This document shows positions 28,871 through 37,092 of a stretch of 64,000 nt of DNA, one piece after another; within the stretch, counting starts at the first letter, position 1; each line of letters opens with the position of its first letter. Below the pieces are notes generated by a model. It was not told the origin of the DNA and did no database searches. It worked only from the letters and a program-made list of their open reading frames with translations. The translations under genes were made by a program, and so were the position numbers. Source of the stretch: Deltaproteobacteria bacterium (GTDB taxonomy: Bacteria; Desulfobacterota; DSM-4660; Desulfatiglandales; Desulfatiglandaceae); NCBI GenBank assembly GCA_019307815.1, contig JAFDIV010000008.1, forward strand, positions 1 through 64,000, in the 5' to 3' direction.

Positions 28871-29108
28871 TCCCGCCGCCTTTGAAGACCTCGCCTGGTG
28901 GATTAAAAAAGACCGCAAAAAGGCCCTTCGGATTGTAAACTTGATCAAAGAAGTACAAAGGGATCCTTTCAGCGGCACTGGCAAACCCGAGTCTTTGAAA
29001 CATGAACTTTCAGGCTGTTGGTCAAGACGTATCGACCAGAAACACCGACTTGTCTATGAGGTTAAGAATGATAACATAAGAATACTGGCGTGTAGATATC
29101 ATTACTGA
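28839..29108 (+). CDS. Txe/YoeB family toxin
   Basis: [66 protein letters not shown]...CRYHY. Confidence 0.93.
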
Positions 29109-32100
29109 GCTTTGTCTTGCCTGGTCCGGCTGCACCGAGTCTTCAGAAGGCCTGCATTAAGTGTCGCAGCTCCTATCCTCCCTGGATCACCTGATTCAAT
29201 CGGCACATAACCAATACCCTTGACCATCCCCACCAGGATGTCAATTGTCCCAGCTCCATTCCAGGCTGCCAGGCCAATATCACTATACGGTGTAAAACTC
29301 TCCAGATCACCGGTGATAAGTGCATAACCAATCTGCCCCAGGTCATACACCATGGCAAGGGGCTGATACACAAACATCTCAAATGCAGCACTGGCAGCAC
29401 CCTTTACCATTCCACCTACGAACCTAACAGCACACAACCCCTCCGGATCAATGAACAACAGGGGGTTGTTGAAACAGTAGGTGTAGAGATTTATACCATC
29501 ACCAAATGGATCAGCCCTCAGGTACCTGCCTGTGGTGGGATCGTAGTAGCGGTTGAGATTGTAGTAAAGACCGGTCTCAGAATCATAATACTGCCCTGGA
29601 AATCTCAGGTTGTTGGTGATGGTTTCGGTTGAAATATGGCAGTTCCCAAAGGAATCGTAGATGGCCGACCACACCACCGCCCCACTGGTGGTAACTATCT
29701 TCTGTGGGGTGCCCAGGTGATCATTCCTGTACCAGTAGTATATCCCTCCTATCCTGACAAAGAGCGGATCAGTGGACCAACCAGAATCAGGCGCCCACCC
29801 ATAAGTCCTTATCTCCTGGCCACTGGAGTCATACTCCCCTACCAGGCCCTCATCCGAGTATACAAAGTACGTCCTTTCACCGTTAACCTCCTTCCACAAC
29901 CTCCTACCAAAGGGATCATAATAGTATTTGTAGGTCAAGGGTTGCGGGTCGTGAGTCGTCACTTCAATAAGGCGGTTTTCGATATCATACACATAGTCAG
30001 TTGTAGTTCCATTGGCATTCTTTTGAATCGTATTACCATTAGCATCGTACTGAAAGGATATACCATCGTAACTTAACAGCTCATTGTTACCATTGTAGCT
30101 CCAGGTTCCAGTGGTTGAAGATGAACTGAGTCGATTCCCCAACAGGTCATATGTATACGACTCATTGTCAAGGCTTGGATTTGTCGCCTCAATCAGACGA
30201 TATAGCTTATCATACTGGTAGGTGTACTGTCCGTGCTCTGTCTCCTTCGTGGTGATATTTCCAACCGGGGAGTACTCGTACTGCCTTGATACCTGTGCAT
30301 TTTGCCCCGGGTCTTTGGCAAGGATACCCTTTATCCTCATCAGAGGAACATACGTGTACTCCGTGGACGATCCCCCAGGAAGGCTTATCCTTGAGGGACT
30401 GTTCCAGTGGTAGGCACTGTATGTAACCTCTCCCTTGCCAGGGATACCAATGCTTGCCAGGCGGTTGTTCTCATCAAAACTGTACGTGTAGGTAGTGCCA
30501 GAGGGATCGGTGAAGGTCTTCTTCAGGCCGTTTCCGTAGTACGTATACCCTATGGTCTTGCTGAATGGACCGTAGTTTACGGTCTCGGACACCTTTCTCG
30601 AAAGATCATCGTATGTGTATGTCCCAGAAGTGGTCCCGTCATCATAGCCTACAATATTGCCCAGCTTGTCATAGGTAAAATGAACCGTCTTAACCGCGCT
30701 CTGGTGATCCCCAGCCTCAAAGCACCTCACCTCCACAAGCCGGTTTATCTCGTTATAAACATACTCGATCCTCTGTCCCTTTGCATCGTTTACCGCTGTC
30801 CTGTTCCCCGCCCCGTCATACTCGTAGATGGTCTCCTGGCCCATGGGCCGTATCACCCTGGTAAGCCGGTTATTCCTGTCATACTCATATGTGGTGATGT
30901 TTCCGTTGGCATCCTTCAGTTGAATGAGGTTCCCCCGGTCATCATACGTGCGCTCAATGACACCTCCCATGGGATCGGTCGTCTTTATAAGGCGGTTGAG
31001 GGCATCGTACTCATATGTTGTTACGTTCCCTTCCTCGTCGGTCTCGGACACCACGTTTCCCGCCTCATCATACGTGTAGGCGCGGGTGCGCACCGTATCC
31101 TGATCAAGAACATCTTCTGCCCGAACAAGCCTCTGCAGTTTGTTGTAATAGAGCTTCCTTGTAAAAGTCGGGTAATCTATACGGACCGGCTTATAAGAAG
31201 ATACCGGGTTGGAAGGGCTCTCGTCATAGTGATACACGGTCTCGTTTCCCGCACCATCAATGACCTTCCTCAGCCTTCCCTCGTTATCGTACTCACTGTA
31301 GGCTTCCTTTCCTTCCTGATCCGTCACCTTAACAGGCAGGTTGTCGGTGTTATACTCCGTTACAATGTACTTGCCATACGGGTCCTTCGCCCTTATCAGG
31401 TTGTTGTGATCATCGTACTCGAACTCAAAACGCTTCAGATATGCATTGATGACGGCAGTGCGGTTGTTGGCACCGTCATATTCATAAGAGGTCGTGTTGC
31501 CAAGAGGGTCGGTTCGGGACAGGAGGCGGCCCATGGCGTCGTAGATGAACGTCCACTCATTCCCCCTGGGATCCCTCATCCTGAGAAGGTTCCCCATCAC
31601 GTCGTACTGCTCAAACAGGGTGGTGTTCCCTTCGGGATCAGTAATACTGGCAATATTGCCCTTATCATCATAAGTGAAGGTGGTGGTTGCGGCCTGGGTA
31701 TTGGCATCCCCTTCTATGGTGGCGGTAAGGAGCCTGCCCTGTCCGTCGTATGTAAATGTTGTAACCCTCTCCGCATCCGTACCTTTTGCCTCCACTTTCC
31801 TCACCAAGTTCCCGTGCTCGTCATACTCGAACGTGGATACGTTCCCCCTCAGATCCGTTATACGCCTCACCTTGTTAAACCGCAGATCATACTCAAAGCT
31901 CACCTGGGAGCCGTCCGGGTGGATTACCTTGGTGAGGTTCTCCCACTCGTCAAACTCCCTCCTGGTGACGTTGCCCTTTTCATCGGTGATGATAAGGTTC
32001 TTGCCGTCCTTGGTGATAGTCTGCACGGTCCTGCCGTTTATATCCACACGCTTCGTGTCACCGCCCTTGTCGTACCAGACCTCCTTTACCATGCCCGATG

Positions 32101-34546
32101 AAGTGGTTATCCTGGCATAGGCCTCATCCTTGCCCTCATCGTAGTCAAACTCAAAGAAATGGCCATTTCCGTTCCTGTCAACAACAGAGGACACGTTGCC
32201 GTAGCTGTCATATGTGATTATGGTAGGACGCCCCCCTGCATCCACCTTCCTGGTCATCCTGCCCTTGGAGTCATACTCGTAGGTGGTGACATGGCCCAGA
32301 ACATCGGTCACCGCAGTGAGCTTGCCGTTGGTGTAAGCATACTCCACGCGCCTGTCTGCCGAATCTCTCACAGCAGACACCCTGCCGTCATCGTTATACT
32401 CAAACCACATGACCTGGTTGTCGGCCCTGTCTGCGATGCCTGCCAGCCTTCCGCCTTCATAGATCAGCTTAGCAACGGCCCCGTTACGGTTGCCGTAGGA
32501 GAGCAACAGACCGGCCGAATCATATTCCTTCCAGTTGCCTCGCTTGTCTTCCCACCTGAAACCTGTGGCCGTCTTCGTGATGGTATAGGTCCCGTTCTTG
32601 AATACGTTCGACCCAGAGTAGGCAGCCTCGTATGATACACCTCCCTTTACTATCTCCTTTATGTTCCCGGTAAAGGAATCTATCTTGAAGCTGAGGTTGT
32701 TCCTCAGGTGTTCCCAGTGCCAGGCATTGTTGTAGAACCACCTCTTTATCCTTACTGCCCCGCCAGGAACCTTTACCGACAAATCAACCGCATCGTCGTT
32801 GAACTGCCTGGTCACCGTGTTAACCGTGCATCCCACCTTGTGAATGATGTTTTTGGCCGTCTCCCACAGCCGCCCCATAAAATCAAAAAACCTCTCCTTC
32901 AACTTCGGCTTCGGGAAACACTTGGTGCCCTTGATGGCCTTGGGCGGAGGAACAGGCTTCGATACTGCTCCGCCTCCGCTGCCTCCTCCCACGTACCATG
33001 TGCCCCCTCCACCTCCGGTCACAGGAGGCACGCCACTGCCGCCAGAGCACTTGCCATATGTGTATGACCAGCAGTGATGCGTCGAACCCTTCGTCCATAC
33101 ACCGTTGCTGCACTGATACCTGTAGCCCACCTTCATGCACCTGAGATACGCGGAACAACCTCCACCGCTCTCACCCTGGTCAAAGGACTGCATGCAGGTC
33201 ACCCTGTAGGGAATGGTCATGCGCTCGTGGGCATCCAGGCTCCCGGGCAGGCTCCCCAGAATCTCAAAGCTAAAGTGCTCATCATTGGAAGGAAGGGAAA
33301 ATGTAATATCATCGGCCCGGATAAGACCGTAGTTGGTTATGGTAAACTCGCCGTTAAACACGTCGCCCGCATGCATGGAAGGAAGGGTCACAGATCCAGG
33401 CTCTATCACCACCACCGCCGCAGGAACGTCTGTCTCATAAACCGCGTTGAGAACAATCTCGTACTTGTCCTCAATGGTTATCTCGTTTACCTCCCACTCA
33501 ACGGTCACAAGGTTGTAGTCAAGGAATACATCCTTGTTGGTGGTAATCCCAGGCTTTATCTGGAAACGCCCAGTGTATTCCTGGTGGTTGGCCTTGGTAA
33601 CACGGCACTTGTAGCTCCCCGCAGGAAGATCGCTAAAGTATGCCTCTCCCAGGCTGTCCGTGGTCTTGGTGTATTGCTCGGTCAGGACGTTTTCGTTCTG
33701 GATCTTCACCCTTGCACCGGCAAGCCCCTGTATCACCTGGTTGTTGGCATCAAGGGTGCCGGTATAGATGTCAGATACCTTGAAAAGCACGTTCCCTATG
33801 CCCGACTGGGTCACGGAAACGTATAGGTGTATGTCCGTCTCCTTGTAATTTGAAGCAGTAAGCCTAAGGTAAAACGAGTAGATCCCCTCGGATACAGAAG
33901 ATGGGGGAGAAAAGGAAAGGCCGATCTCCCGCCTTTCACCAACAGGGAGACTCCCCTGGTCCTGGGCACAATTCAGATGCACCCACGAAGGCGCAGGGTT
34001 TCCGTCCTGGTCCACCACTTCCACGTGAAGATCGTTCAGGGCAGAAAGACCCTTGTTTTCAAGCACCACCGTCTCGGATACGGTATCGCCCAGGGACACT
34101 CCCGTCTCCACGTGGTCAGGGGTAAAGTAAAGCACAGGCTTTGCCTCAGAAAAATGCGTGCTCACCCGGATCGTCTTCCAGGCCCCCGGCGCCGTCTCAT
34201 CGCTTACCACCTTGAGCACAATCGAGCCGCTCTCAGCCGCGCTGTTATCCGCCCATATGGTAAAGGGAAGCCTGGCGCTCTTCCGCGAACCCAGAAAACC
34301 CACCGGTGATCCCACGCTCAGGTGCACGCCTTCAGGGAACACTCCCCCGGGCTGATCAGCCTCATCATACACAAGCCTCAGGTTGGACACCTCCGTGCCC
34401 TCGCCTGTGGCCACGTTCACCTTTATGGTCTTCTCGTAGTTGCGGGGGATATTCAGCTTAATGGAAGAGGGGCTTACGTTCACCCGGTTTATGGTGAATG
34501 TGGCCTGCACGGGACGGTCGGTCCTGTCGGGATGAACCGCCCTCAC
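29102..34546 (-). CDS. Rhs/YD-repeat family protein (polymorphic toxin-like), both ends probably disrupted
   Basis: Many GxxxxxYDxxGR...T repeats, RHS-associated core near the C-terminus, Ig-like N-terminal segment; ORF starts at an internal Met. Confidence 0.9.
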
Positions 34547-36513: not shown

Positions 36514-36542
36514 TTGGCGTGGTCAAAGGTAAAAAGAGGCAT

Positions 36543-37092
36543 GTCAGAGCAGTCCATAAGCCGGGTTCTGTTCCCGGCACTCAACTTTCAGGAGATACTT
36601 TCGCAGTGTCACATACATTTCACATAAGGTAATTACGCCTGCCAATTTGGTGTCTCCTGAGAGTTGAGTGCCGGGCAATGGCCATTCATCTAGCCTCGAT
36701 GTTGCCATCGAGGTCAAGCGACCTACCCGGGAACTCGGGCGGACCACCCTCAAGCGTTCCCCTATTTGGTCTTGCTCCAGGTGGGGTTTACCTAGCTCCC
36801 ATCGTCACCGATGGGACTGGTGAGCTCTTACCTCACCCTTTCACCCTTACCCAGCACTCAACTCCGAGGGGGTATCCAGGTGGTTCACAAGATTATCCAA
36901 GTATTGGGAGAATCCCGCACGCCACAAATATCCCCTTAAAGTTGAGTGCTGGGCGGTCTGCTTTCTGTGGCACTTTCCTGCCCGTCGCCGGGACTGGGCG
37001 TTACCCAGCACCTTGTCCTGCGGAGCCCGGACTTTCCTCCCGGCACTCAACTTTTCAGGTGAGTGCCCGGCGGCCATTTGTCCTGCTCTGAC
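36543..37092 (-). ncRNA. rnpB: RNase P RNA (class A), with enlarged P12 and P19
   Basis: GAGGAAAGTCCGGGC, AAAGTGCCACAGAAA, GGGTGAAAGGGTGAGGTAAGAGCTCACC, GGAGCAAGACCAAATAGGG, CAGAACCCGGCTTAT; closing P1 GTCAGAGCAG/CTGCTCTGAC. Confidence 0.97.

Follow-up and report, generated by a model that had tools for sequence, protein, structure and literature searches.

The 64,000-nt window analysed here (positions 1 to 64,000 of contig JAFDIV010000008.1, Deltaproteobacteria bacterium, an uncultured member of Desulfobacterota) carries rnpB, the gene of RNase P RNA, in which the helices P19, P12 and P3 are capped by one palindrome, CCCGGCACTCAACT…AGTTGAGTGCCGGG. The Rfam model RF00010 is covered from position 1 to 367 (E 2e-104) and the conserved core is intact, which identifies the transcript as a bacterial RNase P RNA of class A. 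The gene is 548 nt long, close to the 550 nt of the preliminary description, compared with about 380-390 nt in insert-free relatives, and its inserts are confined to P3, P12 and P19. The features are as follows.

36542..37089, minus strand: rnpB, RNase P RNA class A, 548 nt, with three loop caps (RF00010, 316.5 bits, full model)
36573..36675, minus strand: P19 cap, a 93-nt palindromic element at 36578-36670 (CACTCAAC..GTTGAGTG) on a CCCGG/CCGGG clamp (inverted repeat, genome pattern match, fold)
36850..36953, minus strand: P12 cap, a 94-nt palindromic element at 36855-36948 on a CCCAG/CTGGG clamp (inverted repeat, genome pattern match, fold; inverted in sister genome G002)
37039..37071, minus strand: P3 cap, a short remnant of the element that has lost its interior (three-copy direct repeat, P3 of relatives, fold)

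A repeat finder returned the arms of P19 (36573-36598/36650-36675; 26 nt, 92% complementary) and of P12 (36850-36875/36928-36953; 26 nt, 85% complementary) exactly where the preliminary description had placed them; since the gene lies on the minus strand, the arms listed there as 5′ are 3′ in the RNA. P3, which had been said to share the same type of stem, is indeed the third copy of a direct repeat (starts 36573, 36850 and 37039), but only in shortened form: its cap, GGGCACUCACCUGAAAAGUUGAGUGCC, is shorter and asymmetric, and we thus regard it as a remnant. When folded alone as RNA, the caps reached –49.7 kcal/mol (P19, z –8.1 against dinucleotide shuffles), –57.4 kcal/mol (P12, z –8.2) and –19.3 kcal/mol (P3, z –4.6), and are thereby predicted to be strong extensions of their host stems. 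For this analysis we defined a CACTCAAC loop-element family by ends CACTCAAC/GTTGAGTG 60-97 nt apart, location in a hairpin loop of a structured RNA and a complementary clamp. P19 and P12 hold full-length members and P3 a remnant.

Comparison of rnpB across some 60 genomes of the order revealed that P3, P12 and P19 are ordinary and short in most of them. Full elements occupy all three loops in both sister species, including a 93-nt copy in P3 of G002. The preliminary description had named unrelated arms of equal length in sister genomes as a refuting outcome; we looked for it and found shared arms instead. Elsewhere, the occupied loops differ: P12 only (G007, G011, G036, G031, G047), P3 and P12 (G028, G041), P3 and P19 (G009, G030), P3 only (G023), or tiny remnants (G035, G021, G013). 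The base of the host stem is kept paired via compensatory clamps (CCCAG/CTGGG, CCAGA/TCTGG). As a side observation, P3 of family f4 rnpB (L189, L050) is occupied by a different palindrome, GGGGTCAGGTCTTGACATTTGACA..., so that P3 has been invaded by unrelated elements too.

The element is not restricted to rnpB. A genome-wide search with the pattern CACTCAAC-N50..80-GTTGAGTG yielded six copies in the window's 4.1-Mb genome and none when the pattern was read backwards. Two of the six lie in rnpB and four in cobalamin riboswitches, each between the conserved segments CCACTG and GGGAAGG. Rfam spanned the insert in two of these riboswitches, abutted it in one and missed the fourth, which was assigned by eye. 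Matches occurred in 11 of 61 genomes; the reversed control gave none in sets of 61 and 86 genomes, which excludes chance. Further copies were located in cobalamin riboswitches of G002 and G030, at the 16S h44 tip of G010 (gene-less), in 23S H98 of G001, and in dispersed structured repeats of G024 (ten copies), G001 and G023; the 16S and 23S helix names were assigned from flanking sequence. The dispersed repeat has the form GGGAGGGCGC...ACTTATCAGTGGGGGAAACCGCAGCCC[element]GGGAATGCGGAGGGGG (L071, L080, L133, L136-L143, L146, L175, L176), and the copies scanned had no Rfam match.

A scan of 85,000 species genomes without RNA bias returned 45 stretches. About eleven of them (about a quarter), from Mesorhizobium, Pseudomonas, Halorubrum, Actinomycetospora and others, look like chance matches that lack matching flanks. 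Most of the remainder lie in known RNAs, namely rnpB P12 (Clostridia, an Acidobacteriota-like metagenome-assembled genome (MAG) and others), 16S h6, 23S and cobalamin riboswitches; Clostridia, Desulfobacterota and the Acidobacteriota-like MAG are the sources of the elements that this RNA-blind scan placed inside RF00010 and the other three RNA types. Because RNA genes make up a very small fraction of a genome, there is strong targeting of RNA genes or retention there. The preliminary description had viewed the palindrome as inserted or copied repeatedly within one structured RNA gene; repeated insertion and copying stand, given the arms in sister genomes, the full-length copies elsewhere and the copying between loops described below, but the restriction to one gene does not, as members of the family in several phyla also occupy 16S, 23S, cobalamin riboswitches and further RNAs. 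Two further settings were noted. Thermoanaerobacter wiegelii contains a dispersed repeat of about 300 bp with ends TTGGCATTTTGCA/TGCAAAATGCCAA and a 62-nt element in its inner hairpin (L088, L090, L091, L112, L125), and in two Desulfotomaculum-like Firmicutes MAGs (L083, L087) the element sits directly 3′ of a tRNA gene, near the transfer-messenger RNA.

The ends are common within one genome and differ between lineages. G041, from another family of the order, bears CACCAAAC/GTTTGGTG ends in P3 and P12 of rnpB, and its genome contains nine CACCAAAC-type copies against none for the control: five belong to a dispersed repeat, and rnpB and cobalamin riboswitches account for two each. Its P19 (L048) retains a small CACTCAAC-type cap, and this RNA gene therefore harbours two element families. 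The dispersed repeat of G041, GGCGGATGGTATCGTCC... (L170-L174), had no credible Rfam match. CACTCAG or CATTCAA versions of the end were found in G011, G036, G031, G047 and the family f4 riboswitches. Length is nearly constant: of 37 Desulfobacterota copies, 35 measure 90-97 nt. Caps in rnpB and rRNA have longer stems, with a median of 20 pairs, than copies at other locations, with a median of 12 (p 2e-7, lineages pooled and uncorrected for ancestry), suggesting that pairing, after insertion, is either under selection or preserved by exchange.

Full-size relatives with the same ends encode a nuclease. Empty alleles of Thermoanaerobacter 23S H98 read TTTCCCACCCGTAAGGGGTAAG, with the loop CCC-GTAA-GGGG. 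In G090 (four of four operons) and G092 (one of four), this loop is replaced, with no duplication seen, by a 308-bp element, CCCGGCACTCAACT-[GIY-YIG open reading frame]-AGTTGAGTGCCGGG, the gene of which has 85 codons (PF01541, E 5e-14). Thermoanaerobacter strain Bu09 has a 72-nt mini element in place of the same loop; 71 of its 72 positions match the two ends of the 308-bp element and it retains the last codons and the stop of the gene, indicating that it is a deletion product. Two members of the window's own family, G036 and G010, have GIY-YIG elements whose ends are CCGGCACTCAACT in a different 23S loop, where a Syntrophomonadaceae (Clostridia) MAG, L117, has a mini. Gene-bearing and gene-less forms thus share ends and site at 23S H98 and at this second 23S position; rnpB is not among these sites. 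The G036 and G010 proteins are 78% identical, with 0.12 non-synonymous (dN) and 1.47 synonymous (dS) substitutions per site; the resulting dN/dS of about 0.08 points to purifying selection on the gene. GIY-YIG rRNA insertion sequences encode the nuclease and the 93-94-nt window copies do not; as their same-ended relatives are gene-bearing, we file the window copies as gene-less relatives rather than as members.

Other small GIY-YIG genes were noted along the way. In the window's own genome, one of them is inserted at a tRNA-Asn(GTT) gene, next to its 5′ half or inside it, and the tRNA is partly duplicated (L239, G000:C45:3034-3267); G023 shows the same arrangement, with two copies in tandem (L256/L242, G023:C78). 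Others (L271, L276, L278, L280, L282) possess inverted ends of their own, CCCTGTTAARTA...TAYTTAACAGGG. This suggests a larger class of palindromic GIY-YIG elements. Near the rnpB neighbourhood, the window also encodes, on the minus strand at 29102-34546, a protein of 1814 amino acids (aa) rich in RHS/YD-type repeats.

Comparison of inserts at homologous sites revealed inversions at three of them. The P12 inserts of the window's genome and of G002 are 97% identical in opposite orientation, those of G007 and G028 are 76% identical and inverted, and the riboswitch inserts of the window's genome are 55-64% identical to, and inverted relative to, those of G002 and G030. Moreover, there is direct evidence of copying from one loop to another within a single rnpB: the P3 and P19 inserts of G002 are 83% identical and inverted, and the P3 and P12 inserts of G028 are 88% identical. 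Between P12 and P19 of the window's rnpB, the interiors show little similarity (50%, z 4.5), and most other pairs of interiors resemble each other little or are unrelated, while the arms within a genome are identical. Gene conversion alone, offered in the preliminary description as what keeps the arms alike, fails on these dissimilar interiors and on the nuclease encoded by same-ended full-size relatives.

We consider it probable that each cap is a gene-less ("mini") copy of a mobile, palindromic element that replaces RNA hairpin loops and in its full form has a gene for a small stand-alone GIY-YIG nuclease between the same ends, CCGGCACTCAACT...AGTTGAGTGCCGG. The common ends, copies in several RNA families, full and mini forms at the same 23S site, loop replacement, inversion, loop-to-loop copying and selection on the gene are the established part of this reading. 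The element would settle in apical hairpin loops (P3, P12 and P19 of RNase P RNA, 23S, h6 and h44 of 16S, the cobalamin riboswitch), where the original loop would be replaced and the paired ends would stack on the host stem so that the RNA core would still fold. The nuclease is likely to drive the spread: it may open the loop DNA of an empty hairpin gene, and repair would then copy the element via the short shared stem. With the same stem at both ends, copying could proceed in either orientation and leave no target duplication. Gene-less copies would use a nuclease made elsewhere, often in trans, and for the window's genome we assume trans action. Cleavage or homing by the GIY-YIG protein is putative.

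Several observations weigh against this interpretation. In the window's own assembly we found no arm-flanked GIY-YIG gene; the small GIY-YIG genes present there are bordered by other sequences. Assemblies of this kind often lack 23S genes. The interiors of most Desulfobacterota minis showed no clear remnant of a nuclease gene, and the excess of Shine-Dalgarno-like motifs near their ends is weak and only suggestive (18 of 58, with 10.4 expected). The near-fixed length of 90-97 nt in Desulfobacterota is left unexplained by simple deletion. Finally, a study of GIY-YIG inserts in rRNA genes of candidate phyla radiation (CPR) bacteria saw no sign of site-specific homing (PMC11270868).

Alternatively, the palindrome could resemble a miniature inverted-repeat transposable element (MITE) and be moved by a transposase or recombinase with a preference for hairpins or cruciforms in DNA, the nuclease gene being a passenger that entered a few copies. 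A recombinase acting in trans would fit the long inverted ends common to the copies, their fixed length and the end sequences specific to each lineage, as well as the lack of an arm-flanked nuclease in most genomes with minis. Yet neither the window's genome nor T. wiegelii showed long-range pairs of arms around a transposase, the loci of Y1 transposases lacked paired CACTCAAC arms, and loops were replaced rather than flanked by duplications. The Thermoanaerobacter mini with its last in-frame nuclease codons implies, furthermore, that the gene came first there, and we judge this explanation unlikely. We find it still less probable that no dedicated enzyme is involved and that template switching during replication, between palindromes that have a GC-rich stem in common, moves copies of hairpins to other loops and makes the arms stay alike, in a DNA-level concerted evolution. 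This process accounts for inverted copies and near-perfect arms, for loops replaced with no duplication and for copying inside a single rnpB; it explains neither the same ends in different RNA families of distant phyla nor a selected nuclease gene between them, and interiors are mostly unrelated within a genome though the arms are identical. Template switching may, however, act on top of mobility.

That the caps are adaptive extensions stabilising the fold of RNase P RNA, with shared arms as convergent GC clamps, seems hardly credible to us. The longer stems of rnpB and rRNA caps, with pairing maintained once inserted, would agree with it, but CACTCAACT is identical beyond the clamp in unrelated RNAs, the caps are absent from most relatives, some copies are inverted, G041 has different ends, and copies outside rnpB contradict it. 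Convergent GC clamps with no match elsewhere were also the second refuting outcome of the preliminary description, which we looked for and did not find; its interpretation is partly supported overall.

Known element types were considered as well. No transposase element with these ends was found, and the replaced, duplication-free 23S H98 loops do not match a MITE. Compared with integron attC sites (RYYYAAC/GTTRRRY), CACTCAAC fits the box in most lineages and ACCAAAC of G041 does not; copies were solitary, without cassette arrays, and integrases were not part of the search. Y1 transposases (REP-associated tyrosine transposases, RAYT) are present in seven of seven genomes searched, at loci without paired CACTCAAC arms; the CACCAAAC ends of G041 lay outside that scan. 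Insertion at the RNA level by reverse splicing is disfavoured because near-identical copies occur in both orientations at homologous sites. The pattern had no match in viral contigs, and the Thermoanaerobacter nuclease had no homologue in plasmid or phage records. At the rnpB locus of the window and at the element loci, Rfam scans returned no group I or group II intron family, and the element is far too short for either. 5S expansion segments have a different sequence.

We give roughly even chances to the broader proposal of a distinct class of mobile elements specialised in hairpin loops of structured RNAs. Autonomous GIY-YIG copies would reside in rRNA loops. Gene-less copies, spreading in trans, would take the place of loops in riboswitches, rRNA and RNase P RNA, in either orientation and with no disturbance to the RNA; ends and nuclease would co-evolve by lineage. 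Differences in the size of peripheral helices in these RNAs are usually put down to drift or to adaptation of the host; in the present case, inserts in four well-known RNA classes trace to a single mobile family. Thermoanaerobacter offers empty, full and mini states in one 23S loop, even between operons of one genome, and with a small enzyme as candidate, the origin of stem-loop inserts such as rRNA intervening sequences (IVSs) and expansion segments can be tested directly. Models of rnpB, rRNA and riboswitches easily go wrong where the gene bears an insert, and several cobalamin riboswitches were missed or shortened by Rfam because of the insert.

Among the open-licence papers searched, a set that excludes older RNase P papers, none connects GIY-YIG with inserts in riboswitches or RNase P RNA, and we came across no description of a family with common ends that extends over RNase P RNA, rRNA and riboswitches. 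Cyanobacterial short tandemly repeated repetitive sequences (STRRs) in RNase P RNA are tandem heptamers, and Rickettsia palindromic elements (RPEs) reside mainly in protein genes; both resemble the present family as small repeats or palindromes tolerated in genes, peripheral RNA helices included. To our knowledge, neither has these ends or a nuclease partner. Stand-alone UPF0213 GIY-YIG proteins (PDB 1ZG2, 1YWL), the best sequence match among solved structures, are likewise single-domain and of 85-90 aa, but were deposited as hypothetical proteins, in records without a link to RNA-gene inserts. 5S rRNA expansion segments are hairpin inserts of the same clostridial groups, heterogeneous between operons, for which horizontal transfer was suggested (PMC7812874); the 5S insert of the one Thermoanaerobacter examined lacks the ends described here. 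In CPR bacteria, GIY-YIG-encoding non-intron inserts occur in rRNA genes, mostly at the top or base of stem-loops, and homing was doubted (PMC11270868). They share with our family a small GIY-YIG gene in an rRNA insert that is neither a group I nor a group II intron; the study treats rRNA only, and in its available text shared palindromic ends and gene-less copies in RNase P RNA and riboswitches, as found here, go unmentioned. The IVSs of 23S rRNA, excised by RNase III in, e.g., Salmonella and Coxiella (PMC4990558, PMC2672173), are similarly short palindromic inserts in rRNA hairpins that occur sporadically among relatives and among the operons of a single genome, and the long cap stems are plausible RNase III substrates. 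In contrast to IVSs, however, one end sequence is common to several RNA families here, and the full form encodes a GIY-YIG nuclease instead of the S23 IVS protein.
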